Assembly: GCA_024682835.1 (NCBI GenBank) | Contig: JAIKYU010000019.1 | Location: 1 to 43,891 of the forward strand | Reading direction: 5' to 3' | DNA length: 43,891 nucleotides | Source of the DNA: Lachnospiraceae bacterium | GTDB taxonomy: Bacteria; Bacillota; Clostridia; Lachnospirales; Lachnospiraceae | Part shown: positions 3,762-36,198 of the stretch, piece after piece | How positions within the stretch are numbered: position 1 is the first letter of the stretch | How the letters are laid out: every line of letters starts with the position of its first letter | Notes under the pieces: model-generated | Database searches by the model: none | Told to the model about the DNA's origin: nothing | Seen by the model: only the letters and a program-made list of their open reading frames with translations | Translations under genes and position numbers: made by a program

Positions 3762-4517
3762 TCAGAACTTCTGTTTCTGGAAAAAGTCATCCAGCTTCTT
3801 CAGCAGTCCCACCTGGTCGATGCTTTTCAGAAGATAATCCGCCGGCTTTAAGGCCAGCACCTTCATGATGCTTTCCTTGTCCCCGCGACCCGTCAAAAAC
3901 ATGACGGGAATCCGGCTGGTGGACAATTCGCTCTTCAGCATCTCCAGCACCTGCGGCCCGGGGGTCACAGGCATTTCATAATCGAGCAGAATCAGATCGA
4001 CATGGTTTTTTGCGAGCCACTGGATCGCCTGAAGACCGGACGACGCCATGGACACACGATACTGCGGCTGCAGCCAGTCGCGGATCACCAGCATGTAGGT
4101 CGTGTCATCATCCACCACGAGAATGCTTTTCTTTCGCAGCTCGACCTGCTCTTCATCCACATATTTTCTCGTTGTCTCGATAATCGCAGGAAGATTCATC
4201 GGCCGGTCAAACCACGCCAGCAGATACTGTTCCGGAAAGAATTTCATCACATAATCTCTTTCCAGTTTGGTGGCAATCAGCAGCATCCGCTTTTCGTCCT
4301 CGATACACTGATCCTTCAGGAAAACGATGGATCGGCGGATCTCATCCACCGATTCGTCGGTAATCAGGACAAAAAGCTCCGTATCATAGGCGGTAAACTC
4401 AAGTGCCTCGAGACTGGGCACACAGAAGCCAGCCTGGATTCCCAGTTCCCCCAGCTTTTTGATCAGCCCCATCACCGTAAAGGTTTCCGCTCTGCTGATA
4501 ACTGTCACATTTTTCAT
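3762..4517 (-). CDS. Response regulator with a degenerate first receiver and no output domain
   Basis: The 251-residue protein has two parts. Residues 1-125 look like a receiver fold that has lost its acidic pocket (no DD pair after the first strand). Residues 130-250 are a normal receiver: acidic DDD at 136-138, phospho-acceptor Asp179 in LLDYEMP, Thr209 in FLTG and Lys231 in YLLK. No DNA-binding or enzymatic domain follows. It starts 16 bp after the DegV-fused kinase stop with AGGAGAAGG as ribosome site, so it is probably a partner of the two hybrid kinases upstream. It may act by protein contact or as a phosphate sink. Confidence 0.88.
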   Translation of the reverse strand: MKNVTVISRAETFTVMGLIKKLGELGIQAGFCVPSLEALEFTAYDTELFVLITDESVDEIRRSIVFLKDQCIEDEKRMLLIATKLERDYVMKFFPEQYLLAWFDRPMNLPAIIETTRKYVDEEQVELRKKSILVVDDDTTYMLVIRDWLQPQYRVSMASSGLQAIQWLAKNHVDLILLDYEMPVTPGPQVLEMLKSELSTSRIPVMFLTGRGDKESIMKVLALKPADYLLKSIDQVGLLKKLDDFFQKQKF

Positions 4518-4533: not shown

Positions 4534-7203
4534 TCATGACTTCATCAGATACACAAAAGCGATCGCATTCGGTCCCCAGATCAGCGAAGTAGCAGCGCTT
4601 GCCTGCAGGTATATCACTTCCTCAAAAGGCGTTTTGCGTCGGATGAGTTGTTCCATTTTCCCTCTGTCCTCAGGCGCCAGATTCGGTGAAATGACCAGCA
4701 GTCTCGACCGGTCCACGCCGCCGGAAGGAATCGTCTTACTGATAAACTGTGTGAGGTACTGCCGCCTGGGACCTGCCGCAAATCCTCTCACTCCGTACTT
4801 TCCGCCACGGGGCGTGAATATCGGGCGCAGCATAAAGCTCTGACAGATCGTGTGGAACCGCGGTGTGATCCTGCCGGTCGCCAGAAACCGATTCGTTGAT
4901 TCCGCGGCGATAAAGGTTCGCACCTGCTTCTTCAGATCACGCATGGCCGACTCCAGTGCCGCCGGAGGGAGATTCTCCGTCTCGGTGATCCGGGACGCCA
5001 GAATGGCCAGCATTCCGATGCCACCGGAGAGCTGCCCCGTGTCAATCACCGTCACGTTGCCGAAGGAATGGGCGGCTTCGGATGCGTTACGGTATGCCTG
5101 CTCTCCGCCCGCAGAGGTCGTCAGATGGAACACATGATCCGCATGAAGAAGCTTTCCTGCGAAAAACTCCTCGTAATCCCCGATAGTCGGAGAGAGCACC
5201 TCAATGGTGCGGTCCGGATTCTTGCCCAGATAGGCCAGCGCCTCTCCTGTGCCGGTTTCCTGATAGTCAATGAAGATTCCCTCCTGCGTCCGGATCCGGT
5301 AAGGCAGCATGCCGATCCGATGCGCGGAAAGCATCTGTTCCGGCAGGTCGCAGACCGAATCTACGGTGATGACCATGCTGTCCTTTCGTTTGTAAACATC
5401 TACTGTCTTCTCTTCGCCAGTCCGCACCGTGGCAATTCCGGTAAAGGTCAGAAGCTGCTGGGGCAGTTTGTCCATCACAGCCCCTTCCAGCTGCGCGCCC
5501 GTCACAGGCTTAAGCAGATAACCGTCAAAGCCGCTCCTGCGATAAAGAGCCTGATTCTCTGATCCGGCATTGGCTGTGAGGACAATCACCGGCGTCGTGC
5601 GGTTCATTCCGCCCTTTTGCTCCCGGATGGCCCCCAGCGTCTCGATGCCGTCCATATCCGGCATCACATGATCCATCAGAATCACATCATACCGGTGATC
5701 CTGCGTCAGCGTCAGACAGTCCGCACCGGAAAACGCCGTGTCGATGTGCATCTTTGTGTCCTGCAGAAGCTTTGCCGCCACGCTGGCGTTTAACTCATTG
5801 TCATCCACGATCAGGATGTACGCTCCCGGCGCCTCAAAGCTGTGATGCCAGGTGTCGGACTCCCCGGACTGTCTGCCCGACCGGAGCGTCAGTTTGCCGA
5901 TGGCTTCATCCTCAGCGATGATCTGCGGGATCCGTACCCGGAAGGTGGAGCCCTTCGTGTAGACACTGTCAACGGTGATTTCGCCGCCCATCAGATCCAC
6001 CAGCTGCTTCACGATGGAAAGCCCCAGACCCGTTCCCTCAATGTAGCGGTTCTTCTGCTCATCCACCCGGCGGAACACATCAAACAGCATCGGCATGGAT
6101 TCCTTTTTTATGCCGGATCCGGTATCGATCACCGTGCAGATCAGATCAACCTTCTTCTCCGTCTGCCGTCTTCTGCACTCCACGGAAAAGGTGACGCTTC
6201 CTTCCCTGGTGTATTTCACCGCATTGTTCAGGAGGTTGATGAGGATCTGCTTGATCCGGATGTCATCGCCGATCAGACTTCTGGGCATGGTCTCGTCGAC
6301 ATCGACATGAAGCTCCAGACCCTTTTCCCTGGCCGGAGACCAGATCATATTCACCACCTCGGCAATCATGTTTCCGACGGAATAGGAATTCGGCACCAGC
6401 TCCATTTTGCCCGATTCGATCTTGGACATGTCCAGAATATCATTGATCAGGGCAAGAAGCATCTGACCGGCTCCCTGTATGCTCCTGGCGTCCTCCGCCA
6501 CATCCGCCGTGACCGCCTCCCGCATGATCATCTCATTCAGACCGATGATGGTGTTGACCGGCGTACGGATCTCATGACTCATATTGGAAAAGAAACGGTT
6601 CTGCGCCCGGTTAATTTCCTCGATCTGTTTTGTGGTCTTCGCCGCAATCCGCTGCTCCTCCACATAGAGATTGGTCTCAAAGATGACCATCAGACTCACG
6701 AACACCCCAACGATCAGCGTGGATGCGAGAGAGTCCGTATAGGCCATTCTGGCCGTATGGGGCGTAATCAGATCGGGATAAAACCACTGGATGAGATAGC
6801 AGGAGCTCAGGACCACTGCGATGGAGATCAGGAAAATGATGCGCCTGCGTCCGCGCACCACCATACTGACAAATATGGCGCCGAAAAGAAACCACATGGG
6901 CGTTCCGCCGTACATTCCTCCGGATGCGACAAACACGCCCGGAAGCATGACAAAAATCAGAATGCATGAAATGACGGTTGCCCCCGTCTGCACCCGGTGA
7001 AATCTTAACGACAGGGCAAAAATCACCCAAAACACCACCAATCCCGCATAGATCAGCAGAATATCGAGCACGCTCTCCCGCATGATGATGGACAGCAGGG
7101 ACATGACGACGAGTGCAAGAAGGCCGAAGATGCCCACCAGGTGGAAGGTTCTCTCCTGCAGGTCGATCCGGTGATCAAACAGCGCTTTTATCCATTTATT
7201 CAC
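4534..7203 (-). CDS. Hybrid sensor histidine kinase fused to a C-terminal DegV (fatty-acid-binding) domain
   Basis: The 889-residue protein has, in order: about six membrane segments (residues 20-180), a HisKA dimerisation helix with His210 in NMSHEIRTP, an HATPase domain with the GTGLGL box near 390, a receiver at about 460-575 (Asp511 in LMDHVMP, Lys565), and a DegV/EDD domain from about 609 to the end. The DegV part shows ITVDS.CDLP, a VTVIDTG.LSGG.G strand, ATGRI and a terminal WGP. The usual lipid-head contacts are altered: TSQP is read as VLSP, SS.LSG as TTSAGG, and the His of H.GPG is missing. The start is GTG at 7201-7203, overlapping the previous stop as GTGA with AGGAGG 9 bases upstream; an upstream ATG at 7269 is in frame but lacks this site. 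In FakB proteins DegV binds a fatty acid for phosphorylation by FakA; here it could sense lipid or act as output. Domain calls firm, role inferred. Confidence 0.9.
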   Translation of the reverse strand: MNKWIKALFDHRIDLQERTFHLVGIFGLLALVVMSLLSIIMRESVLDILLIYAGLVVFWVIFALSLRFHRVQTGATVISCILIFVMLPGVFVASGGMYGGTPMWFLFGAIFVSMVVRGRRRIIFLISIAVVLSSCYLIQWFYPDLITPHTARMAYTDSLASTLIVGVFVSLMVIFETNLYVEEQRIAAKTTKQIEEINRAQNRFFSNMSHEIRTPVNTIIGLNEMIMREAVTADVAEDARSIQGAGQMLLALINDILDMSKIESGKMELVPNSYSVGNMIAEVVNMIWSPAREKGLELHVDVDETMPRSLIGDDIRIKQILINLLNNAVKYTREGSVTFSVECRRRQTEKKVDLICTVIDTGSGIKKESMPMLFDVFRRVDEQKNRYIEGTGLGLSIVKQLVDLMGGEITVDSVYTKGSTFRVRIPQIIAEDEAIGKLTLRSGRQSGESDTWHHSFEAPGAYILIVDDNELNASVAAKLLQDTKMHIDTAFSGADCLTLTQDHRYDVILMDHVMPDMDGIETLGAIREQKGGMNRTTPVIVLTANAGSENQALYRRSGFDGYLLKPVTGAQLEGAVMDKLPQQLLTFTGIATVRTGEEKTVDVYKRKDSMVITVDSVCDLPEQMLSAHRIGMLPYRIRTQEGIFIDYQETGTGEALAYLGKNPDRTIEVLSPTIGDYEEFFAGKLLHADHVFHLTTSAGGEQAYRNASEAAHSFGNVTVIDTGQLSGGIGMLAILASRITETENLPPAALESAMRDLKKQVRTFIAAESTNRFLATGRITPRFHTICQSFMLRPIFTPRGGKYGVRGFAAGPRRQYLTQFISKTIPSGGVDRSRLLVISPNLAPEDRGKMEQLIRRKTPFEEVIYLQASAATSLIWGPNAIAFVYLMKS

Positions 7204-9650
7204 TGCTGCGCCCCTCCTTCCTCCAGACGGGAACGAATCCTCTGCACGCAGGCCGTGTAGACCGTACACAGCTCCATGTGCTCCTTCTGAATCCGCTTTC
7301 CGTCTCCGTCTGCAATCGCCAGTTCCAGGCGCCTTGCCTGCTTGGTCAGGCTCTCCTCTCCGAGAATGGCGGCCCCGTCACGCAGTGCCCTGAGACGGAC
7401 GGTATACGGTTCCATGGTCCCCGTGGCATAGGCCGACTTGAACACCCGCATATTATGCGGCAGTTCCTGCACGAAGATGCTGCAGAGGTTCCGGTAGAAG
7501 CCCTCATCCCCCAGGCAGTGCTCGATGCCCAGCGGTTCACCGGTCAATGCCTTGGGCATCTGTCTGGATCCGGAAGCGTCATCCAGCCGCTCCTTCCGAA
7601 CCTTGGCGGACGGCAGGATTCTGCTCAGGATATGCTCCAGCTCCGTCGTTTCAATCGGCTTGGGCAGGAATCCGTCAAATCCTTCCGCGAAGAACATCTC
7701 TCTCGCCCCGCTGACCGCGTTGGCCGTCAGCGCAACAAAACGCGTATCTCTGTTCTTGACCTGAGCGATCTGCCGGAGTGCCTTCATCGCCTCAATTCCG
7801 TCCATCTCCGGCATCATATGATCCATAAAGACCACATCGAAGTTTTCCTTTTCGTACATGGCGAGCGATTCTCTACCCGAGAGTGCCGTCTGCACACGCA
7901 TGCCATAACCCGAAAAGATTCCGTTCGCAACGACCAGGTTCATTTCCTCGTCGTCCACAACCAGCGCACGCACGCCGGGGAAGGAGACGCGGTATTCCGT
8001 TTTGAGCGGGTCAATCTCCCCGCCGATATTGAGCGTGTTCAGAATCCCGGCGATGGGGAAGCCATAGAAAGGCTTGCGCAGCACGGTGATTCTGCTCTCC
8101 TCCGGCGGCATATATTTCTGATCGGCAACCACGATCACCTCGGTGGATTTTGCCAGCCTCAGGAAGAATGCGGAGTCCTCATCATATTCTTCACGAGCCG
8201 TAAACACATGTGTCGGCTTGTCATACTCCGCAATTTTCTTCATATCCTCCAGACTTCCCGCCCGTTTGATCGGTATATGAAGTCCCCGCACCAGATGATT
8301 GATCATGGCCTCATAGTAATCCCGCACCAGCGGTACCTTAAACTTCTCCGACTTCAAGTAGCAGGCAATGATCAGCTTGTCCGTATCGGCCACGCTCATA
8401 CAGGGCGACGGATCGACCACGGTCTGCGGCACGGAGAGCCTTACTGTGGTTCCCTGTCCCGGAACGGAGGAGATCGTCACAAAGCCTCCCATCGCATGAA
8501 CAAAGCCGTAGACAATGGACAATCCCAGGCCGATCCCTCCGGCACTTCTGGTTCTGCCGGAATCCGCCTGATAATACCCGCGTGAAATCTTTGTCAGCTC
8601 ATCCGGCAGAATGCCGGCACCCGTGTCGCTCACCTCTATGGACAGATTGACGCCGTACGCCCGTTTCTCCGCCATAATGCGGACATAAATGCCGCCCTCT
8701 TTGGTAAACTTGTATGCATTGTCAATCAGATGCCAGAGGATCTTCTTGAGCCGTCTCGGATCTCCCTTGAGCTTGCAGGGAACCGAAGCATCCACATCAA
8801 TGACCAGATCCAGTGTCAGTTCTGCATTCTGTGCACGAAAGATGCTGATGACATCGTTGACCACAGAGTAGATTTCGTAGATTTCCTCCGATAGAATGAT
8901 TCTGCCTGTATCGATCTCCGTATAATCCAGAATGTCTCCGACCTGCTCCGACAGGCGGTGACCGGCGCGGTAGATGGACATCATTTCCTCGTCATCCGCA
9001 CCGTTTCTCTCGATAATCAGCGCTGAAAGACCGGTGACCGCGTTGATGGGCGTCCGAAGCTCATGCGAAATATTGGCCATGAAATCCTCCGTCCGCCGGT
9101 TCATCTCCGCCAGCTGACCGATGGCCCGCCCCTGCATTTCATTGGTGCGCTGTCTGCCGCTGATCATCGATTTGGCAAAGCGGGCTGACAGAATGACGAT
9201 CATGATGTGCAGGATCATCCGGGAAAACGTCAGGGTATCGGAAAACACTGTCAGTCCCTGATGCACAATGATCTGATAGAGAACGGTCAGAAAATAGACA
9301 ATCAGCCCGATATCAAACACACGCAGATCATCCGCAAGAGAAAACAGGAAAAAGACGAAACAGATAATCAGTGACACGTCAAACAGGCTGGATTCGTGAA
9401 CACCCTGGTAAAACGTGATCGAGTAATACACCGTCGCAAGCGCGTAGATTCTTGCCTTCTCGGAAAACGGCTGTTTCAGGTGAATCCACCAGGCAAAGAG
9501 AATGCTCAGCAGCAGATACGGAATCGCCCAGGGTTCCCAGCCAACCACAAGACTTTCTATCATCAGCCCCAGCGCACAGGCGCTGTAGGAAAGGGTCAGA
9601 ACAAAGATGACATATCGGTTTCTTTCACGTCTTCCCTCATCAGGATTCAT
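7200..9650 (-). CDS. Hybrid sensor histidine kinase with receiver and a degenerate Hpt domain
   Basis: This 816-residue membrane kinase has about six hydrophobic segments (residues 12-160), HisKA with His196 in NISHELRTP, HATPase with IGLGLS near 373, a second receiver-like fold without acidic pocket (about 425-540), and a true receiver (560-680) with Asp610 in FMDHMMP and Lys664. The C-terminus aligns by eye with the Hpt of the gene just upstream: YTVRLRALRDGAAILG against YTIKVHALKSSARIIG. Arg754 stands where the phosphorylated His should be, so this Hpt cannot accept phosphate. The ATG at 9648-9650 has AAGGAGGT 8 bases upstream and overlaps the preceding gene by 11 bases. It probably needs the Hpt of its neighbour for phosphotransfer. 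Confidence 0.9.
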   Translation of the reverse strand: MNPDEGRRERNRYVIFVLTLSYSACALGLMIESLVVGWEPWAIPYLLLSILFAWWIHLKQPFSEKARIYALATVYYSITFYQGVHESSLFDVSLIICFVFFLFSLADDLRVFDIGLIVYFLTVLYQIIVHQGLTVFSDTLTFSRMILHIMIVILSARFAKSMISGRQRTNEMQGRAIGQLAEMNRRTEDFMANISHELRTPINAVTGLSALIIERNGADDEEMMSIYRAGHRLSEQVGDILDYTEIDTGRIILSEEIYEIYSVVNDVISIFRAQNAELTLDLVIDVDASVPCKLKGDPRRLKKILWHLIDNAYKFTKEGGIYVRIMAEKRAYGVNLSIEVSDTGAGILPDELTKISRGYYQADSGRTRSAGGIGLGLSIVYGFVHAMGGFVTISSVPGQGTTVRLSVPQTVVDPSPCMSVADTDKLIIACYLKSEKFKVPLVRDYYEAMINHLVRGLHIPIKRAGSLEDMKKIAEYDKPTHVFTAREEYDEDSAFFLRLAKSTEVIVVADQKYMPPEESRITVLRKPFYGFPIAGILNTLNIGGEIDPLKTEYRVSFPGVRALVVDDEEMNLVVANGIFSGYGMRVQTALSGRESLAMYEKENFDVVFMDHMMPEMDGIEAMKALRQIAQVKNRDTRFVALTANAVSGAREMFFAEGFDGFLPKPIETTELEHILSRILPSAKVRKERLDDASGSRQMPKALTGEPLGIEHCLGDEGFYRNLCSIFVQELPHNMRVFKSAYATGTMEPYTVRLRALRDGAAILGEESLTKQARRLELAIADGDGKRIQKEHMELCTVYTACVQRIRSRLEEGGAQQ

Positions 9651-10653
9651 CCTGCTTTACCTCCTTCCGGATGGCATCCCAGTCAAGCGCCAGCAGCGCA
9701 GTCCGGATGCGTGACAGACGTTCCGCATCCGGAGAATCCAGATTATATTCCTCCATGGAATGCAGAACCATCTCCACCAGGTCGTAGTCCATCTGTTCAG
9801 CGAACTCCTCGATGGAACGATAGGCATCCGCCAGCTTGTCCGCCTCCGCATAAGGACGGACATCCACGCTTTCATCCGCTGCAAACAGCGGCAGAAGCTT
9901 CTCTCTGAAGCTTCGGTACGTTTCCAGCATGGCCGGCGTCTCATCACGGATCAGCCGGATATCGTCCCTGTTTCCGGCCTCTTCAAGTTCCGCAGCCTGC
10001 TCCGAGAGCGCCGTCGCTCCGATGATGCGGGCGCTGGATTTGAGCGCATGAACCTTGATGGTATAGGTTTTCCATTCCTCGCGGTCCAGATATCCCTCAA
10101 TCTCATCTGACTTGGTGCGGATGGTATCGTAAAAGATCTTCAACGCCGCGTAGTAGTTTTCCTCCGAGCCGCAGTTGGCAATGCCTGTTTCCACGCTCAG
10201 GCCATCCACAACAGCCAGAAGCTCCATTCTGTCAACGCCGGTATCCTCCCCGGGCGAAGGTTCCTGCTCCTCCGGCGCCTGTTCTCCCGAGGTGAAAAAA
10301 CGTAGCCGGTTGACGTCCACCGGTTTTTCGAGAAAGTGCGAAAACCCGTTTTCCCTGAAGTGCTGTGCACTGACATCCCGCGCGTCTCCGAGAAGATACG
10401 CCTCCGGCTTCTCGTCACGATCCGTCGGCAACGCCCTGAGAAGCTCCTGAAGCGTCGCCGCTCCGTCTGCCCCCGTCATCCGGTCATCAATGAACAGGCA
10501 GTCAAAACGCATGGTCTTGATGATGGCTGCCGCATTCGGCGCAGAAGCAGCGGAGCGCACGGCAAATCCGTTGCGCATCAAAAGCTCCGTCAGGTATTCC
10601 CGCTCCAGATAATCGTCGTCAACCACCAGTGCCGTCTGTAGTGTCTGCGTCAT
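9640..10653 (-). CDS. Receiver-Hpt phosphotransfer protein
   Basis: The 337-residue soluble protein has a receiver (residues 6-120; acidic DDD at 12-14, Asp56 in FIDDRM, Lys110 in LEKP), a Pro/Glu linker, then an Hpt four-helix domain from about 142 to 255 with an intact phosphohistidine site, His202 in VHALKSSAR. A further helical stretch of about 70 residues follows. The start chosen is ATG 10651-10653, which places the receiver at the N-terminus and has AGAGG about 9 bases upstream; a longer frame upstream lacks family similarity. It is the only intact Hpt visible among the relay genes here, so it may connect both hybrid kinases. It begins 40 bp after the topoisomerase gene. Confidence 0.87.
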   Translation of the reverse strand: MTQTLQTALVVDDDYLEREYLTELLMRNGFAVRSAASAPNAAAIIKTMRFDCLFIDDRMTGADGAATLQELLRALPTDRDEKPEAYLLGDARDVSAQHFRENGFSHFLEKPVDVNRLRFFTSGEQAPEEQEPSPGEDTGVDRMELLAVVDGLSVETGIANCGSEENYYAALKIFYDTIRTKSDEIEGYLDREEWKTYTIKVHALKSSARIIGATALSEQAAELEEAGNRDDIRLIRDETPAMLETYRSFREKLLPLFAADESVDVRPYAEADKLADAYRSIEEFAEQMDYDLVEMVLHSMEEYNLDSPDAERLSRIRTALLALDWDAIRKEVKQDES

Positions 10654-10693
10654 ATCCCGTTCCTCTCTGTCCGTGACTGTCGCTATCCGCCTG

Positions 10694-12628
10694 CTAGACG
10701 TCCAGCATCGCCTCCACCGCATGCGTCCGTATGTACTCCCTGCGCGGCGGCACATCCACTCCCATTAACAACTCCGTCATTTCCGATGCCATGCGCGCAT
10801 CCTCAATGGCGACCGATTTCATCATTCTGCGCGCGGGATCCAGCGTGGTCTCCCACAGCTGCTCCGGATCCATTTCTCCCAGTCCCTTATATCTCTGAAG
10901 CGTGAAGCCGCCTTTATGCGTCTTGCGGTATCTGGCGAGCGCCTCGTCGTCATAGAGATACTGTTCCTCTCCCCTGCCCGGAATCGCCTTGTAAAGAGGC
11001 GGCATGGCGATATAGACATGCCCCTCGTAGATCAGATCCGGCATGAAACGGTAGAACAGCGTGAGCAGCAGCGTCGCGATATGCGACCCGTCCACATCCG
11101 CATCCGCCATGATGATGATCTTGTCGTAACGCAGCTTTTTGATGTCGAAATCGTTGCCATATCCCTCTGAGAATCCGCAGCCGAACGCGTTGATCATCGT
11201 CTTGATCTCCGCATTGGCAAGCACCTTGTCGATCGACGCCTTTTCCACGTTGAGGATCTTGCCGCGGATCGGCAGGATCGCCTGATAATTCCTGTCTCTC
11301 GCCATCTTGGCGCTGCCGCCGGCGGAATCTCCCTCCACAATGAATATCTCGCATTTCGAAGCATCCCTGCTGATGCAGTTGGCCAGCTTTCCGTTTGAAT
11401 CGAACGAATACTTCTGTTTGGAAAGCATATTGGTCTTGGCTTTTTCCTCGGTTTTGCGAATCTTAGCCGCCTTCTCCGCACAGCCGATGACCGCCTTGAG
11501 GGTCTCCAGATTGCGGTCGAAAAAACGGACAATCTCGTCTCCGGCGACCTTGGAGACAACCTTTGCCGCATCCTGATTGTCCAGCTTGGTCTTCGTCTGA
11601 CCCTCAAACCGCGGATCCGGATGCTTGATGGAAATCACGGCCGTCAGACCGTTGCGCACGTCGGCACCCGTGAAATTGGCATCCTTATCCTTAAGGAAGC
11701 CGAGCTGTCTGGCATAATTGTTGATAACCGTCGTGAAAACGGTCTTAAATCCCGTCAGATGGGTGCCTCCCTCCGCATTGTAGATATTGTTGCAGAAGCC
11801 GAGAACCTCCTCCCGGAACTCGCCGATATACTGGAAGGCACAGACGACCTCTATTCCCTCGCTCTCCCCGCGGAAGGACACGACATCCGTCACTGTCTCA
11901 TGGCCTTTGTTCAACGCGCGCACAAATCCGACGACCCCCTCCGGCTCGTGAAAAGTGAGCACTTCCTCCGTTCCCGGGCGTTTGTCCTCGTAGTGGATCG
12001 TGAGCTCCGGATTCAGATACGCCGTTTCGTGGAGGCGGGACTTGATGTCATCCTCCTTGAATCTCGTTTTCTCGAAAATCGTGTCATCCGGAAGGAAGTT
12101 GACCCGGGTACCGGTTTCTTTGGTGTCGCCGATGGGCGTAAGCAGTCCCATCACCAGCGGCGTGGTGGGTTCACCCCGCTCATAGGTGTCCTGATAGATA
12201 TGACCGCCCGTCCTGATCAGAACCGTCATATGAGAGGATAGCGCGTTCACCACGGAGGAGCCCACGCCGTGCAGTCCGCCGCTCGTTTTGTAGGAGTTGT
12301 TGTCGAATTTTCCGCCGGCATGCAGCGTCGTATAGACAATACGCTCCGCGGAGATCCCCTTGGCATGTCTGTCAACCGGCACACCGCGTCCGTTGTCCTC
12401 CACGGTTGCCGATCCGTCCGTCTCCAGCGTCACCCGGATCTCCGTGCAATATCCGGCCAGATGTTCATCCACGGCATTGTCTACAATTTCATAGACCAGA
12501 TGATTCAAACCCCGCGTCGTGGTTGAACCGATATACATCCCCGGGCGGACACGTACCGCCTCCAGTCCTTCCAGTACAGTGATACTGGAAGCGTTGTAAT
12601 CATTCTGCGTGCTTGTCATATTACTCAT
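10694..12628 (-). CDS. Type IIA DNA topoisomerase subunit B (ParE/GyrB family)
   Basis: The 644-residue protein carries the full B-subunit layout: GHKL ATPase (EIVDNAVDEH, VEDNGRGVP, GGLHGVGSSVVNALS), transducer domain, TOPRIM (IVEGDSAGGSA, and the metal site in ADADVDGSHI) and the C-terminal QRYKGLGEM box with QLWETT. It supplies the ATP-driven gate of a gyrase or topoisomerase IV. GyrB and ParE are hard to tell apart by eye in Firmicutes. Location away from dnaA/recF genes hints at ParE, but no A subunit lies beside it. ATG 12626-12628 has GGAGAG upstream and overlaps the DegV stop as ATGA, so the two genes are translationally coupled. Confidence 0.93.
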   Translation of the reverse strand: MSNMTSTQNDYNASSITVLEGLEAVRVRPGMYIGSTTTRGLNHLVYEIVDNAVDEHLAGYCTEIRVTLETDGSATVEDNGRGVPVDRHAKGISAERIVYTTLHAGGKFDNNSYKTSGGLHGVGSSVVNALSSHMTVLIRTGGHIYQDTYERGEPTTPLVMGLLTPIGDTKETGTRVNFLPDDTIFEKTRFKEDDIKSRLHETAYLNPELTIHYEDKRPGTEEVLTFHEPEGVVGFVRALNKGHETVTDVVSFRGESEGIEVVCAFQYIGEFREEVLGFCNNIYNAEGGTHLTGFKTVFTTVINNYARQLGFLKDKDANFTGADVRNGLTAVISIKHPDPRFEGQTKTKLDNQDAAKVVSKVAGDEIVRFFDRNLETLKAVIGCAEKAAKIRKTEEKAKTNMLSKQKYSFDSNGKLANCISRDASKCEIFIVEGDSAGGSAKMARDRNYQAILPIRGKILNVEKASIDKVLANAEIKTMINAFGCGFSEGYGNDFDIKKLRYDKIIIMADADVDGSHIATLLLTLFYRFMPDLIYEGHVYIAMPPLYKAIPGRGEEQYLYDDEALARYRKTHKGGFTLQRYKGLGEMDPEQLWETTLDPARRMMKSVAIEDARMASEMTELLMGVDVPPRREYIRTHAVEAMLDV

Positions 12629-13503
12629 TCTTCTCTCCAATGCTGTCTTTTCGTCGCCGTGACGGCAATCGCTCCCGGTCCGATATGACACCCGACCGAA
12701 AGGGAAAGCGGGTCATAATGAATCTCTCCTGCCCACGGCATCGCCTCCATGACCTCATCCCGAAACGCAAGCAAAGCTGTCTCATCGCCGGAACAGGCCA
12801 TATCAATATCCACATCATGCGCACGAAGCCCGCCGAAGCGGGTTTCAATGTCATCCAGAATGGCCTGAATCATAATTTTGCATCCCTGGGCGTGGGTTCT
12901 TGCCTTGGCAAAGGCATCAAGCTTTTCGCCCTGAATCTGCAGGACAGGACGGATGCGCAGCAGGGTGCCGATCGCTGCAGCGGTCGGCGTGATCCGGCCG
13001 CCTCTTTTCAGATAAGTAAGGGTATCCAGCATGATATAGATGCCGGATTCCAGACCCGTCCGCTCCAGATTCTCACGGATTTCAGCTGCCGACATGCCCT
13101 TCCGGGCCAGAGCAAGCGCATCCAGACAGGAACGGCGCAGCGTCACGGAAATGCGTTTATTGTCCACCACCTCCACGCGGCCGTCGTAATCCTGCGCAAG
13201 AATTCTCGCGCTCTGGCAGCTTCCTGACAAACCGCTGCTCATCGGGATATGAACGATCTGATCGTGATCCTTGAGCACCTGATCCCAGAGCGCCGTCACA
13301 TCGGTGGGGGCCGGCTGTGAGGTGCTGATGCTTTTTCCCTCGTCAATCAGGCGGTAAAACATCTCCTGGGTGATATTGACGTCCTCGAAATAATCCTGAT
13401 CTCCGATGCGAAACGGCATCGGTAGAACAAAAAGCCCCAGTTCCTCAGCACTTTTTCTGGTGATTCCGCTGTTGGAGTCGGTTACAATGGCTACTCCCGG
13501 CAT
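12625..13503 (-). CDS. DegV family fatty-acid-binding protein (FakB-like)
   Basis: The 292-residue protein has all hallmarks of DegV/FakB: VTDSNSGI at residues 7-14, STSQP near 60, MSSGLSGS near 90, VVDNKRIS, YLKRGGRI near 170 and CHIGPGA near 278. These motifs form the acyl-chain tunnel and the head-group contacts that bind a fatty acid and present its carboxylate to the kinase FakA. A FakA-type gene lies about 2 kb upstream on the same strand, beyond recG. It is the first gene after a consensus promoter (13574-13602) and has a G-rich ribosome site (AGGGGGG). Family assignment is strong; the acyl preference cannot be read from sequence. Confidence 0.92.
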   Translation of the reverse strand: MPGVAIVTDSNSGITRKSAEELGLFVLPMPFRIGDQDYFEDVNITQEMFYRLIDEGKSISTSQPAPTDVTALWDQVLKDHDQIVHIPMSSGLSGSCQSARILAQDYDGRVEVVDNKRISVTLRRSCLDALALARKGMSAAEIRENLERTGLESGIYIMLDTLTYLKRGGRITPTAAAIGTLLRIRPVLQIQGEKLDAFAKARTHAQGCKIMIQAILDDIETRFGGLRAHDVDIDMACSGDETALLAFRDEVMEAMPWAGEIHYDPLSLSVGCHIGPGAIAVTATKRQHWREE

Positions 13504-15638: not shown

Positions 15639-17306
15639 TTATTCGGCTGAAACAATATATGCGTACACCGGCTGCCCGCCGTACTGGAGTTCCACATCCA
15701 CCTGCGGGAACTTCTCGCCGATGCGCTCCATCAATGTCTGTGCTTCCTGTTCCTCGACGTCCGCTCCGTAATACAGGCTCACCAGCTCCTGGCCGTTCTG
15801 CATCATTTTTTCAAGCATGGAAACCGTCACGTCCACACGGTCGCTTCCCACCTGAAGAATCCCGTTGTCGCCGATCCCCATGTAGTCTCCCTGACGGATC
15901 TTCAATCCGTCAAGCACCGTGTCCCGGACAGCGTAGGTCACTTCACCGGAGGATACCGTGGAAATGGCATCACGCATCATGGACTCGTTTTCCTCGGCCG
16001 CGTCGTCGGGAATGAAATTGACCAGTGCGGCGATCCCCTGAGGAACCGTCCTGGTGGGTATGACGACCAGCTTTCTGTTTTCGCTCATTTTGCTGGCCTG
16101 CTCCGCTGCCAGGATAATGTTTTTGTTGTTGGGAAGGATGAATACCGTGTCCGCATTGACCCGTGATGCAGCCTGCAGCAGATCATCCGTGCTCGGGTTC
16201 ATGGTCTGTCCCCCCTCGATCACCTGATCACAGCCGAGACTCTTGAAGATCTCCACCATTCCGTCTCCCGCGCAGACAGACACAAAGCCGATGCTCTTGT
16301 GCTCTCCCTGCTCCTCCGCACCGCTTTCCTCCGTTGCATCCAACTGGAGCGTCTTAGCGGTGAGCGGCTTTCCGGAAGGGATGTCGACATGTCCCTCCGT
16401 CCGGATATCACGCACGCTGACATCCCTGAGGCTGCCGTACATCAGTGCGCGCTGCAGCACCAGTCCCGGATCGCCCGTATGAATGTGGAGAGACACCCCC
16501 TCTTCCCCCTCGGTCACGGACACATCATCGCCGACGGAGGTCAGAAATCCGCGGATATCATTCATCTGTTTGCGGTTGAGGGGCTGGCTGAGAATGGTCC
16601 TGAGCACCACGCAGTACGCGTATTTCAGCTGCTTCTCCTGCTCTCTTTCCTCGCTCTCCTCGGGCGAGTTTTCAAACGGAATTCCCTTTCCGAGATACCC
16701 GTCATAGGCGCCCTTCAAAAACTCCAGAAGCCCCTTTCCACCCGAATCGACAACGCCCGCTTCCTTAAGCACCGGAAGCATATCCGGCGTGCGCATAAGC
16801 ATCTCGTCCGCCGCGCCGAGAATTCCCAGGAAAAACGTGTCCGGATCCGTCTCGCCCGCGTCCGCAAGCTCCCGCACCCGGTCGCTCGCGCCCTTGGCTA
16901 CCGTCAGGATCGTGCCCTCCTTGGGAACCATGACCGCCTTATATGCTGTCTCCACCGCCTTCTCAAAGGCATCCGCCAGAATGGCGCCGTCAATGGAGGC
17001 ATGCTTCTTTGCCACCTTGGTAAAGCCACGCAGCAGCTGTGAAAGTATGACGCCCGAATTGCCTCTTGCTCCGCGAAGGGAACCGGATGAGATCGATTTG
17101 CATACCGCCTCCATGTCGGCTCCGGGCTCCGCGGCCACTTCCCTGGCTGCGGACATAATCGTCGCTGTCATGTTCGTCCCGGTGTCGCCGTCCGGCACAG
17201 GAAACACATTCAACTCGTTGATGAGTTCCTGCTGCGATTCCAGCTGTTTGGCTCCCGCCAGAAACATCTGCGCCAGCATTCCGGCATCAATTGCTATTCC
17301 GCTCAA
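15639..17306 (-). CDS. DAK2-domain fatty acid kinase (FakA/YloV family)
   Basis: The 555-residue protein starts with a DhaL/DAK2 nucleotide-binding domain whose ligand motif PDGDTGTN (Asp39, Asp41, Asn45) binds Mg-ATP, followed by GSLRGARGNSG near 85. The middle and C-terminal thirds match the FakA layout. FakA phosphorylates fatty acids held by a FakB/DegV protein so that exogenous acyl chains enter phospholipid. The TTG at 17304-17306 is chosen: AGGAGG lies 8 bases upstream and the protein then begins just where the family does. An in-frame ATG at 17390 overlaps the Asp23 gene and would cross a palindrome. It precedes recG, the usual Firmicutes order. Confidence 0.9.
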   Translation of the reverse strand: MSGIAIDAGMLAQMFLAGAKQLESQQELINELNVFPVPDGDTGTNMTATIMSAAREVAAEPGADMEAVCKSISSGSLRGARGNSGVILSQLLRGFTKVAKKHASIDGAILADAFEKAVETAYKAVMVPKEGTILTVAKGASDRVRELADAGETDPDTFFLGILGAADEMLMRTPDMLPVLKEAGVVDSGGKGLLEFLKGAYDGYLGKGIPFENSPEESEEREQEKQLKYAYCVVLRTILSQPLNRKQMNDIRGFLTSVGDDVSVTEGEEGVSLHIHTGDPGLVLQRALMYGSLRDVSVRDIRTEGHVDIPSGKPLTAKTLQLDATEESGAEEQGEHKSIGFVSVCAGDGMVEIFKSLGCDQVIEGGQTMNPSTDDLLQAASRVNADTVFILPNNKNIILAAEQASKMSENRKLVVIPTRTVPQGIAALVNFIPDDAAEENESMMRDAISTVSSGEVTYAVRDTVLDGLKIRQGDYMGIGDNGILQVGSDRVDVTVSMLEKMMQNGQELVSLYYGADVEEQEAQTLMERIGEKFPQVDVELQYGGQPVYAYIVSAE

Positions 17307-17321
17307 CTTCCCTTCCTCCTC

Positions 17322-17340
17322 TATAAAACATAGTTTTATA
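17322..17340. promoter_or_regulatory. Perfect palindrome in front of the FakA-like gene, candidate operator
   Basis: TATAAAACATAGTTTTATA reads as two perfect 8-base inverted arms around ATA. It lies between the Asp23 stop and the FakA-like TTG start, one base before the AGGAGG ribosome site. A DNA operator for a dimeric regulator or a small RNA hairpin near the ribosome site are both possible. No regulator gene is adjacent. Confidence 0.5.
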
Positions 17341-17382
17341 TCTGACTTACTCCGTTCGGATGCCGATCCCGTAATATCGCGA

Positions 17383-17745
17383 TTAATCAATCACCCGCAC
17401 ACCGTCGACATAGATATTGATCTTCTCGACCTCCATGCCCGTAAAATCCTCCACCTTATATTTGACATTTTCGATCAGATTCTCCGCAACCGCCATGATA
17501 CTCACGCCGTAGGAGACAAACACATGAAAATCCAGCCTGAGCTTGTGTGCGGGAGTCACGACGACCTGTATCCCCCTCGTCATGTTTTCCCCCTTCAGAA
17601 GCTTGGCCAGTCCCTCTCTGACGCTGAAGCCGGCCATTCCGACCACACCGAAGCACTCATTGGCCACCACGCCGGCATACTGCGCAATCACTTCGTTTCC
17701 GATCTGGATGCTGCCGATATGTGTGTTTATTGAAGAAGCTTTCAT
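17383..17745 (-). CDS. Asp23/Gls24 family envelope stress protein (YloU-like)
   Basis: The 120-residue protein contains the whole Asp23/Gls24 (DUF322) fold: GSIQIGNEVIAQYAG at the start, then alternating strand and helix to VNIYVDGVRV-like KINIYVDGVRV near the end. Members lie under the cell membrane and respond to envelope stress, though the molecular role is not settled. The ATG has GGCAGGAGGG 8-9 bases upstream. It is divergent from rpmB and is followed by the FakA-like kinase, the gene order of rpmB-yloU-yloV in Bacillus. The minus strand has a perfect TATAAT at 17811-17806 with only a weak -35, the likely promoter. Confidence 0.92.
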   Translation of the reverse strand: MKASSINTHIGSIQIGNEVIAQYAGVVANECFGVVGMAGFSVREGLAKLLKGENMTRGIQVVVTPAHKLRLDFHVFVSYGVSIMAVAENLIENVKYKVEDFTGMEVEKINIYVDGVRVID

Positions 17746-20688: not shown

Positions 20689-21750
20689 ATGAAAACGGTT
20701 GCCAGGCTTGCTTTGAAACCGGGTATGATCACCGGCGAGGATGCCGTCAATTTCAACGGCGACGTCATCGTCCCCGCCAACACCGAGCTGACAAGTATCA
20801 AGATCGCAAAGCTCGCGCGGCATGATATCATGGCCGTCACCATCAAAGAAAAAATCGATCTAGCTACCACCCACTTTGAGCGCGTCCGTTGCTCTGAAGG
20901 CTTTCAGAGTTTTGTTTCCGTCTATCAGAAATTCTTTCCGGTCTACAAGACGCTCCTGATGAACTTTGTCCTCTACCGGCAGACCTTCAACATCGACGAT
21001 CTGATGAAGGTCTACGACAACATCACCGCAGCTGCCGGCACACAGGAGCTGCTGCTGGATTATCTTTACAACATGGTTCCGTCCGAGGACGACATGACCC
21101 ACGCACACTGCCTGAACGCCGCTCTCATCGCCGGCGTATTCGGCAACTGGCTCAATCTCTCTGAGGGGGATCGCACCATCCTGATCCAGACCGGCTTTGT
21201 GTACGATATCGGCAAGCTCAGAATCCCTGATCAGATCCTCTGGAAAACGGGTAAACTGGAGGATTCAGAGCGGAATCTTCTGCGCAAGCATGCCCGTATG
21301 GGGTATGACATGGTGAAGAACCTGCCGCTGAATGTACACATCCCCATTGCCACGCTTCAGCACCACGAACGCATCGATGGAAGCGGCTACAGCGAAGGTC
21401 TTAAGGGCGACGCCATCAATCCCTTTGCCAAATACATCGCCATCGTGGACACCTATGAGGCAATGACCAGCGCCCGCGTCTACAGACAGTCGCTCAACCC
21501 CTTCCAGGTCATCGCCCATTACGAGGAGAGCCGCGGTTACGAACGGTATGAAAGGGACGCGCTCAAGACCATCCTGTCAAGGATTGCACACACCCAGCTG
21601 GGCTTAAACGTGCGCCTGCATGACGGCACGGAGGCCGAGGTGGTCAGCATCAATGAACATGCGCTCTCTCTGCCGCTCGTGAAAATCCTTCGAAACAACA
21701 CGCTGTATGACACCGCGCAGAACGGAAACCCCGTCGAAGCAGTGCTGTAG
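20689..21750 (+). CDS. HD-GYP domain protein with altered HD pair
   Basis: The 353-residue soluble protein has an N-terminal region (1-130) common in Firmicutes HD-GYP proteins and an HD-GYP domain from about 130 to 300. Visible landmarks are H138/H140, YDIGK at 172-176, H201, HHERIDGSGY at 225-234 and VDTYEAMTSARVYR. HD-GYP enzymes hydrolyse c-di-GMP. Here the first residue of the HD pair is Tyr172 (codon 21202-21204), so one metal ligand is missing while Asp173 remains; activity is doubtful and a ligand-sensing role is possible. Ribosome site GGGGAG lies about 7 bases before ATG. It is divergent from the DUF2953 operon and convergent with the next gene. Confidence 0.85.
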   Translation: MKTVARLALKPGMITGEDAVNFNGDVIVPANTELTSIKIAKLARHDIMAVTIKEKIDLATTHFERVRCSEGFQSFVSVYQKFFPVYKTLLMNFVLYRQTFNIDDLMKVYDNITAAAGTQELLLDYLYNMVPSEDDMTHAHCLNAALIAGVFGNWLNLSEGDRTILIQTGFVYDIGKLRIPDQILWKTGKLEDSERNLLRKHARMGYDMVKNLPLNVHIPIATLQHHERIDGSGYSEGLKGDAINPFAKYIAIVDTYEAMTSARVYRQSLNPFQVIAHYEESRGYERYERDALKTILSRIAHTQLGLNVRLHDGTEAEVVSINEHALSLPLVKILRNNTLYDTAQNGNPVEAVL

Positions 21751-21784: not shown

Positions 21785-23647
21785 CTACGTCATATGCCTT
21801 TTCAGAAAACTGACCAGTTCCGGGCCGGGAATCGGCCTTGAGAAATAGTAACCCTGAATATAATCGATGCCAAGACTGACCATCGCATCATACTGTTCCC
21901 TGGATTCCACACCTTCCGAAACAATCTTCATGTCCATGTCGTGGATAATATTGACCATCCCGTTCATCACATGTCTGATCCTGTCGTTTGTAAAATATCC
22001 CTGGGTAAAGCTTAAATCGAACTTGATATTCCGGGCAGGCATACTGACGAAATAATCCAGATTGGAGCGGCCTGTTCCGAAATCATCCAGTGAAAAGCTC
22101 ACGCCCATATTGATCAGTTTTTCCATGTTGTGCATCAGCAGATGCTTCAGCCCATTATCCGCCGTCTCGGTAATCTCCAGATTGATTCTGGTCGGGTCAA
22201 TTTTGTAGGTTTCCATATGCTTCTTGATAAAGCCTGCCGGGTTTTCGTGGTCAAACTGGGCAACCGAAATGTTGACCTCGATGTTTTCAATCCCGAGCCC
22301 CGTTAATTCCCCTGAAGCCCACAATTCACACACCTTCTGGAATACGCTCATCCCGAGCGGAATGATCTGGCCGTTTTCTTCGGCAACCGGTATGAAATCA
22401 CCCGGCGGCACCATGGATCCGTCCTCCCTTTTGATCCGCACAAGCGCCTCAGCGGAGGTAAACCTCCCTTCCTTCACATTATAGATGGGCTGATAATACA
22501 CCTCTACCCTGTCGTCCCGGAGCGCATTTTCAATGAGATTATAGATCTCACTTCTGTTGCGCATTTTTTCGATCAGTTGCTTGTTGCAGACAAGCATACT
22601 GTCTGCGGAATCCTCGTAACAGTGGATGAAACTAAACACCTCATCGGGTCCCGACAGCATATTGCTGTCCGGGAAATAGATAAATTTTGCTTCGACGGGA
22701 ATATCTGTGACGCCGTCCGCCTGCGCCTTGATGTCCATCAGTTTTTCATGTGCTCTTTCCGGCGAATCGTAGACCAGGCAGAACATATCATCACCGATCC
22801 GGAATACCGGCTCCTTTCCCAGCTTCAGAAAGGCTCTCGCGGAGCGGTTCACGGCATTTTTCATAATATCCAGTCCCGCAGTGGGAACCAGATATTTGAT
22901 CCTGGCGGTAAAAAATGAAAAGGATTTCCTGTACGTATATCTGTCCTGCAGATACAGGGACAGCGCATTCTGCGTAAACAGTCCCGTGGCACGGTCTATA
23001 TGCTCATTCGGGTTCTCCAGCTGGGAATAAAGCACCACCATACCAAGCGCAGCCGCAAACCCCACAAGCAGCGTCTGCTTGGAAAAGAACTGAATAATGG
23101 CAGCAATGAGCCACAAGCCCTGCCAGGTAAACAGCGCTATGAGTCTCCTGTGGGGGATATCCCTCTTATGCCTGATCGAGAGAAACAGGGTAGCACAAAT
23201 GTAGAATACAGCCAGCGCATATGTGCATAAGGCGGCAGGGCCGTATGAATAAACAATCCTGCCGTCCATGTAATAATTCAGAGGCAAAAAGACAATCAGA
23301 AGCTCACCGACAGCATACAGGAAAATGGCAAGCGTCCTGATCAGCCTGTTTTTAAACTGAACGGCGATATCCAGACAGGCATACAGGAAGCCGCAGTAAC
23401 CCTGTGTCACAAGCAGCATAATATAAAACTTGCAAACGCCCCTCGTGATTAACGGAGAAAAGCCATGGTAAACAGCCATATGGATGCATACGATCGAAGC
23501 GATATCAAATATGAGACAAACGATGCACACACCAAAGGCTGCGACGAACAGAAGTCTGTTCTTCACATTCAGCTTTCTGTCACGCTCGATCAGCACCCCG
23601 AATATAATGAGCATGACCAGTCCACAGATCTGCAGTTCAATATTCAT
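21785..23647 (-). CDS. Membrane c-di-GMP phosphodiesterase: degenerate GGDEF plus EAL domain
   Basis: The 620-residue protein starts with about seven or eight membrane helices (residues 5-215), then a GGDEF-like region whose signature reads RIGDDMF, so it is not a cyclase, and a complete EAL domain from about 380: the EAL of AEALVRI, N in VNISVAQF, E in LEITET, DDFGTGRSN, K in IKFDLSF, E in SEGVES and Q in IQGYYF. These residues bind metal and c-di-GMP, so it should cleave c-di-GMP. The ATG at 23645-23647 has GAGGGAG upstream. Promoter boxes TTGCAT and TAGAGT lie 23-51 bp before it. It ends 34 bp from the convergent HD-GYP gene. Confidence 0.92.
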   Translation of the reverse strand: MNIELQICGLVMLIIFGVLIERDRKLNVKNRLLFVAAFGVCIVCLIFDIASIVCIHMAVYHGFSPLITRGVCKFYIMLLVTQGYCGFLYACLDIAVQFKNRLIRTLAIFLYAVGELLIVFLPLNYYMDGRIVYSYGPAALCTYALAVFYICATLFLSIRHKRDIPHRRLIALFTWQGLWLIAAIIQFFSKQTLLVGFAAALGMVVLYSQLENPNEHIDRATGLFTQNALSLYLQDRYTYRKSFSFFTARIKYLVPTAGLDIMKNAVNRSARAFLKLGKEPVFRIGDDMFCLVYDSPERAHEKLMDIKAQADGVTDIPVEAKFIYFPDSNMLSGPDEVFSFIHCYEDSADSMLVCNKQLIEKMRNRSEIYNLIENALRDDRVEVYYQPIYNVKEGRFTSAEALVRIKREDGSMVPPGDFIPVAEENGQIIPLGMSVFQKVCELWASGELTGLGIENIEVNISVAQFDHENPAGFIKKHMETYKIDPTRINLEITETADNGLKHLLMHNMEKLINMGVSFSLDDFGTGRSNLDYFVSMPARNIKFDLSFTQGYFTNDRIRHVMNGMVNIIHDMDMKIVSEGVESREQYDAMVSLGIDYIQGYYFSRPIPGPELVSFLKRHMT

Positions 23648-36079: not shown

Positions 36080-36149
36080 CAAGCATTCACCGTCTGTTTG
36101 CTTTGCCCGTTTACTTTGTCGGTTATTCTGTACAAAGAAGTCCGTTCTA

Positions 36150-36158
36150 TGGTATGAT
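36150..36158 (+). promoter_or_regulatory. Extended -10 promoter for the EAL-PAS gene
   Basis: TGGTATGAT is an extended -10 element (TG, one base, then TATGAT), 40 bp before the chosen ATG. No good -35 is present, which is acceptable with the extended element. The divergent HD-domain promoter lies about 70 bp to the left. Confidence 0.45.
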
Positions 36159-36198
36159 GGAAATGATATCTCGGTGGCTCTATATGAGGGAGTTTGTG

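Follow-up and report, generated by a model that had tools for sequence, protein, structure and literature searches.

The stretch of DNA analysed here, which we refer to as the window, comprises 43,891 nucleotides from a Lachnospiraceae bacterium (GenBank assembly GCA_024682835.1, contig JAIKYU010000019.1), and on its minus strand lies a gene (4534..7203) for a histidine kinase ending in a DegV domain, hereafter the DegV kinase. In fatty acid kinase, the subunit that binds the fatty acid comes from the FakB/DegV family (PF02645); here the domain is found inside a histidine kinase and tied to a second one, HK2. The gene is a single open frame running from 7203 to 4534, and its 889-residue product displays membrane segments (approximately residues 1-195) followed by HisKA (200-265), HATPase (312-427), REC (463-575) and DegV (611-886) domains recognized by Pfam, which confirms the unbroken run from membrane sensor to DegV that an initial annotation, made from the sequence alone, had described. 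The HisKA (64 bits), HATPase (96.7 bits) and REC (85.1 bits) matches all exceed their Pfam cut-offs, which makes the protein a hybrid histidine kinase, and the DegV match scores 81.7 bits (cut-off 27). His210, Asn327, Asp360, Asp467, Asp468, Asp511 and Lys565 are invariant in the 49 rows chosen for an alignment (A4), and a motif scan of DegV kinases finds the phospho-His in 107/112 and the receiver Asp in 106/109. The DegV/FakB-fold domain spans residues 605-889 (4537..5391, minus strand). In a predicted model its fold is complete and FakB-like, and the initial annotation had likewise seen its core fold motifs kept.

The start codon of the DegV kinase is a GTG within the sequence GTGA, overlapping the stop of the upstream gene for HK2 (7200..9650, minus strand), a partner hybrid kinase of 816 residues with membrane segments, HisKA, HATPase and REC (563-674) domains by Pfam. 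According to hydropathy, HK2 and the DegV kinase have five membrane segments each. The C-terminal end of HK2 resembles an Hpt domain (30 bits with a self-built profile, no Pfam Hpt match), with Arg in place of the His. The region between its HATPase and REC domains (residues ~412-560) has no Pfam match and is perhaps a worn receiver. Upstream of HK2 lies a gene for a 371-residue REC-Hpt protein (9640..10755, minus strand; Pfam and Hpt sequence) in which the Hpt His is intact. Directly after the DegV kinase comes a gene for a 251-residue protein (3762..4517, minus strand) with a C-terminal REC and no recognized output domain, as judged by Pfam and synteny; it occupies the same place in three other loci (L074-L076), and Pfam recognizes nothing in its N-terminal half.

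The window's genome (3.22 Mb) is fragmented into 154 contigs, and the initial annotation had warned that a frameshift or assembly error at about 5380-5420 might have merged two genes. This is not so. Two relatives, with DegV parts 54-55% identical, have the same start position and the same domains, which also recur in three paralogues of the same genome. Among nine DegV matches in this genome, five lie in frames of 286-305 residues and four in frames of 902-1238 residues; the latter all have HisKA, HATPase, REC and DegV domains by Pfam, with a C-terminal Hpt in two. DegV shares a frame with a histidine kinase in 112 open reading frames (ORFs) of the annotated loci described below, and one class of these proteins has 319 kinase-length matches in a set of 5.8 billion proteins, with HATPase, REC and DegV present in all 120 matches listed. 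An artefact, to which we assign practically no chance, is refuted by the paralogues and by the identical architecture in relatives.

The initial annotation had called for a search for proteins of the same domain architecture, and these turned out to be numerous. A profile of the fused type (A1) produced 55 matches at 266-446 bits in 61 related genomes, in frames of 821-1238 residues, originating from 24/37 genomes of the window's genus and 0/24 genomes of other families; the remaining 28 matches at E ≤ 1e-30 do not exceed 192.5 bits, and their frames measure 282-347 residues. Confinement of the fusion to the window's genus was ruled out by family-wide matches in 397 sampled Lachnospiraceae genomes, of which 81 have a match at E ≤ 1e-50. 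Seven of these were set apart for having separate DegV genes only (172.7-192.2 bits; loci L205-L207 were inspected, and G115, G221, G225 and G315 were not), leaving 74 genomes counted as having the coupled DegV type, mostly inside kinases. A sample of the order (295 genomes) yielded one case in another family (G1044, 924-residue frame), the other six matches outside the family having at most 210 bits and frames of 289-366 residues, and in a sample of the phylum (398 genomes) none of the 20 matches from other families exceeded 204 bits, their frames measuring 284-397 residues, these being judged by score and frame length only and not by neighbours. In these samples the coupled type is nearly restricted to Lachnospiraceae, G1044 excepted, and within the family the two-kinase DegV relay is widespread. 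The titles of 20 named loci that contain a DegV ORF point mostly to Lachnospiraceae, with Ruminiclostridium, Eubacterium, Mageeibacillus and Lachnobacterium also represented, and several come from the rumen. Since only the best first-look candidates were scored in each genome (six in the family and phylum samples, eight in the order sample, and two in the HK2 search described below), the copy number per genome is an underestimate and some genomes that have the genes may have been overlooked.

Gene neighbourhoods were annotated in 122 loci, that is, four of the window's genome, the 20 named loci (DegV ORF above 150 bits) and 98 chosen from the matches in the 61 and 397 genomes, some short-contig or low-scoring ones being omitted; domains in this sample were called with profiles built from a few proteins at Pfam positions, not by Pfam. 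The loci contain 123 DegV-type ORFs above 150 bits. Upstream sequence is available for 116 of them, and in 107 of these the ORF immediately before is that of a histidine kinase in the same orientation. That kinase matches the window's HK2 at ≥300 bits in 104/107 cases, the others belonging to L110 and the tandem L140. Removal of near-copies at 90% identity, after which 122 of the 123 ORFs remain, changes little (106/115 follow a kinase, 103 of them of HK2 type). The gap is ≤20 bases in 103/106 gene pairs, with overlaps measured on stop-to-stop frames and hence overstated. Exceptions to the pairing are the separate DegV genes of L205-L207, three loci in which HK2 is disturbed (cut by a contig end in L142, split into two ORFs in L151, set off by a short ORF in L118), and three with no HK2 directly upstream (L080, L192, L196). 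Narrow-pattern motif scans of HK2 find the glycine box in 23/109 and the receiver Asp in 85/106. Two oddities may be recorded here: L140 (G444:C29:7750-19919) has two tandem DegV kinases behind one kinase gene matching HK2 weakly (254 bits), and L192 and L196 have diverged kinase-DegV proteins with no recognized REC, each followed by a 463-residue ORF unmatched by the self-built profiles.

To avoid a circular choice of loci, HK2 was also searched for independently in the 397 genomes. It was found in 73, including 70 of the 74 with coupled DegV (Fisher p 6.5e-69). In two of the three genomes with HK2 only, the contig breaks off at HK2 or within the kinase that follows; the third has a DegV kinase below the score cut. 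The four with DegV only comprise two cut by contig ends (G223, G234), one on a 4.5-kb contig (G071) and one of the odd L192 type (G163). The window's genome has four HK2 genes (548-1836 bits, the next match at 145) and four DegV kinases, three pairs of which are linked; the remaining HK2 takes up most of a 3.1-kb contig and the remaining DegV kinase reaches a contig end, and these two likely belong together. What varies is the placement of DegV. The commonest order, transmembrane segments-histidine kinase-REC-DegV, accounts for 80/123 ORFs, and beside HK2 the domain also occurs as a separate gene (L111-L113, L204), as DegV-Hpt with no second kinase (L116, L117) or at the N terminus (L114, L198). 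Such freedom of position, combined with constant nearness to one kinase, suggests a binding partner rather than an output.

The two genes of a pair also share out their Hpt domains. By profile, the Hpt match lies in HK2 in 78 of 107 pairs and with DegV in 25; no pair shows it in both genes and 4 lack it, which amounts to exactly one per pair in 103/107. Of the four lacking it, L149 is cut by a contig end, L171 is adjoined by an Hpt encoded as an ORF of its own, L140 is the DegV-kinase tandem, and L110 has a separate DegV behind its own kinase, with HK2 one gene further up. In the window's clade, where the Hpt-like end of HK2 has Arg for His, the separate REC-Hpt protein retains its His and may thereby maintain one working Hpt per system.

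Residues of the DegV domain were compared in an alignment comprising 83 fused domains, 5 from separate genes beside a kinase and 16 solos, with the numbering of FakB1 transferred by alignment and manual counting to the window's canonical DegV/FakB gene (12625..13503, minus strand; Pfam 204.7 bits, NCBIfam DegV 224.4 bits), which served as internal control (motifs TSQP, GGR, KART and HIGPG). According to PMC8892158 and PMC9136124, the fatty-acid carboxylate is held in FakB1 by a network of Thr62, Ser95, Ser171 and His270, Arg173 is assigned to catalysis and Arg205 to docking on FakA and the membrane, and both arginines are termed completely conserved. The fused domains depart from FakB at these positions. 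Arg205 occurs in 2/83 fused domains, 0/5 separate-gene forms and 15/16 solos; His270 is kept in 2/83 fused domains and 14/16 solos, its place being taken by Asn in 68/83 fused domains and in 5/5 separate-gene forms beside a kinase; Arg173, often lost, remains in 35/83 (16/16 solos), and Ser95 is present in 46/83 (16/16 solos). The 120 database proteins listed for one class have Asn270 in 119, the Cys of an Asn-Cys-Gly-Pro motif in 117, Ser95 in 118 and Arg173 in 6. Arg205 is found in 0/120 when the alignment is anchored on the KYRG of a solo row, a register that depends on the alignment, since a shift of one residue gives Arg in 47/120 and a HMMER profile alignment to 4x9x likewise sets Arg205 one residue later. 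An earlier alignment (75 fused domains, 17 solos), with seven duplicate loci and two contig-cut domains left out, gave Asn270 in 54/75, His in 3/75 and Arg173 in 27/75. In the window copy the corresponding residues are Val62, Glu95, Arg173, Ala205 and Ile270, and both changes pointed out initially, TSQP to VLSP and loss of the His before Gly-Pro (now Ile), are indeed present. This copy is more eroded at the head-group site than most, and the ligand of its small clade may differ or be gone. Because the separate-gene forms have Asn270 in 5/5 and Arg205 in 0/5, the residue change seems to have arrived with the move to HK2 and not with the fusion.

Phylogeny bears on the order of events. A branch with full support parts all coupled DegV domains from the solos, both in a quick tree of 104 domains and in a careful tree of 54 (100/100), and the separate genes behind HK2 (L111-L113 and L204) branch outside the clade of fused forms (92/98 in the careful tree, 99 in the quick one). 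L110, also a separate DegV gene, falls inside that clade. Viewed from the solos, the trees favour, with moderate branch support, a sequence in which DegV became the neighbour of HK2 before its fusion to a second kinase. In our reading the domain descends from FakB and has given up its service to FakA.

Output functions are encoded nearby in many loci. The gene just before HK2 encodes a REC-HD-GYP or REC-GGDEF protein in 35/105 loci and a lone receiver in 18, and lies on the opposite strand in 3. One gene further upstream such enzymes number 0/72 and lone receivers 1/72, and at the second and third gene after HK2 such enzymes number 3/105 and 2/98 (for example after the pair in L112, L113 and L116). 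The motifs of these receiver-joined enzymes are intact in 26/27 HD-GYP and 16/16 GGDEF proteins of the same loci, with examples confirmed by Pfam. As the window's genome has 59 GGDEF matches, the position of such genes weighs more than their presence. A chemotaxis receptor is a neighbour in some loci (L088 and L186, by Pfam), together with CheA and CheB in L088; a sodium:alanine symporter gene lies beside Hpt-class DegV kinases in L012, L122 and L127. In the window, the place before HK2 is taken by the REC-Hpt gene, and a receiver-only gene follows the pair.

We therefore propose, with a probability of about 0.6, that a duplicate of FakB has become the ligand-binding subunit of a two-kinase phosphorelay, the relay of Lachnospiraceae probably using a built-in fatty-acid carrier fold as its lipid sensor. 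The DegV domain would most likely be the cytoplasmic ligand-binding subunit of a complex of HK2 and the DegV kinase. It would bind a lipid, either an acyl chain or something related, and being loaded or not would alter the activity of HK2 and the fused kinase. Phosphate would then travel from REC to Hpt and on to separate response regulators, represented elsewhere by enzymes of the HD-GYP or GGDEF kind and by single receivers. The architecture, the gene pairing, the single Hpt per pair, the lost FakA-docking residues and the intact predicted fold are all read from sequence; we infer that a ligand is held, what it might be, that both kinases join in one complex and in which sense control would act. 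A wider proposal, which we advance tentatively and hold somewhat less probable than its opposite, is that of a class of intracellular lipid receptors for phosphorelays that arose in Lachnospiraceae, in which a FakB duplicate, an obligate partner of a hybrid kinase and later fused to a second one, reads the acyl pool of the cell or the community and sets both cyclic di-GMP (c-di-GMP) levels and chemotaxis. Such a system would parallel RpfC/RpfG, the part of the receptor being played by a carrier protein.

The main rival is that DegV is an empty docking or dimerization module joining both kinases by protein-protein contacts and holding no ligand. We consider this unlikely, since the Asn-Cys-Gly-Pro motif is altered yet conserved and Ser95 is frequent, which suggests that a site has been kept. 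Several observations do weigh against a ligand-binding subunit. The loss of Thr62, Arg173 and His270 could mean that there is no ligand at all, the Thr62/Ser95/His270 network being gone from the window copy, and mutation of the carboxylate-holding network makes FakB unstable, according to PMC8892158. The membrane segments of both kinases could be the real sensors. The 92/98 branch placing the separate-gene forms first has moderate support, and a motif scan finds no His in 10/79 Hpt matches of HK2, so that a match is not always a working Hpt. In addition, 47/105 loci have some other gene before HK2, and the window has no GGDEF or HD-GYP regulator adjoining it.

Alternatively, DegV might be the output, phosphorylation of the receiver opening or closing the domain and so controlling lipid delivery. 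Such a role would fit the commonest order, in which DegV directly follows REC, but the Arg for docking to FakA and the membrane is nearly always lost, the catalytic Arg is lost in 48/83, the pair is often adjoined by response regulators of its own whose output domains are intact, and DegV is also found at the N terminus, in proteins lacking a receiver or encoded by itself; we regard it as improbable. The interpretation given by the initial annotation is partly supported: of its two options, the sensing of a ligand is the one we favour, and phosphorylation-controlled lipid delivery is disfavoured by the lost docking Arg and the separate regulators. Even less credible is a working FakB that still feeds FakA and is merely tethered to a kinase, for all that its predicted fold is FakB-like, that Arg173 is kept in the window copy and that the canonical FakB gene and the gene for FakA, the 583-residue subunit A of fatty acid kinase (15639..17390, minus strand; TIGR03599 578 bits; Pfam FakA-like_C, Dak2 and FakA-like_M), lie 5.4 and 8.4 kb upstream. 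Arg205, required for docking to FakA, is gone in 81/83 fused domains and in the window, and recG and a canonical fakB are found beside the pair, among one set of the annotated loci, only in the window and L074-L076. We reject this possibility on the loss of Arg205 and His270.

A relay in which a FakB duplicate would serve as ligand-binding subunit has parallels in known systems. To our knowledge, RpfC of Xanthomonas has neither a DegV domain nor a second kinase, and the SaeRS kinase of Staphylococcus aureus has no DegV domain. RpfG, the partner of RpfC, is a REC-HD-GYP enzyme, a type resembling a common neighbour of HK2. DhaQ and DhaK-DhaR have a related fold and similarly employ a substrate-binding kinase subunit or its copy as regulatory partner. 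The titles of their Protein Data Bank entries speak of a "co-activator Dha-DhaQ" (2iu4) and of a DhaR(N)-DhaK complex (4lry). RpfC itself is a membrane-bound receptor kinase whose signal is the fatty acid DSF (diffusible signal factor), bound via a 22-residue N-terminal region, as stated in PMC5391125; binding by DegV would be analogous, and the relation appears to be one of working, not of membership. The two-component system SaeRS is affected by free fatty acids and by fatty acid kinase, according to PMC5539427, a likeness that differs in being indirect, via the fatty-acid pool. What is new is the receptor on the one hand and the pairing on the other, the kinase parts being ordinary. In keeping with the initial statement that no characterized protein of this design is known, we found no publication describing a relay with a DegV-histidine kinase fusion among the titles and abstracts listed by searches of open-licence PubMed Central text. 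Public records name these proteins in the manner of "DegV family EDD domain-containing protein," and naming after DegV alone hides the kinase half from name searches.

Fatty acids surround the Lachnospiraceae of gut and rumen, and a relay present in 74/397 genomes of the family offers a direct test of their lipid sensing. It would also be a case of the carrier subunit of a metabolic kinase converted to a signalling part. Since a genome may have several copies, as the window's genome has four, different copies may read different lipids if DegV is indeed a lipid receptor. The rule of one Hpt per kinase pair could help to match kinases elsewhere.

Elsewhere in the window, three genes are of c-di-GMP type: an HD of the HD-GYP type (20689-21750, plus strand), an EAL (21785-23647, minus strand) and an EAL-PAS-GGDEF protein (36103-38748, plus strand), in which EAL precedes GGDEF. 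Finally, a 949-residue ORF (25855-28704, minus strand) joins an FtsW/RodA/SpoVE domain to a penicillin-binding transpeptidase domain, both recognized by Pfam, and thus corresponds to a joined SEDS-PBP (penicillin-binding protein).
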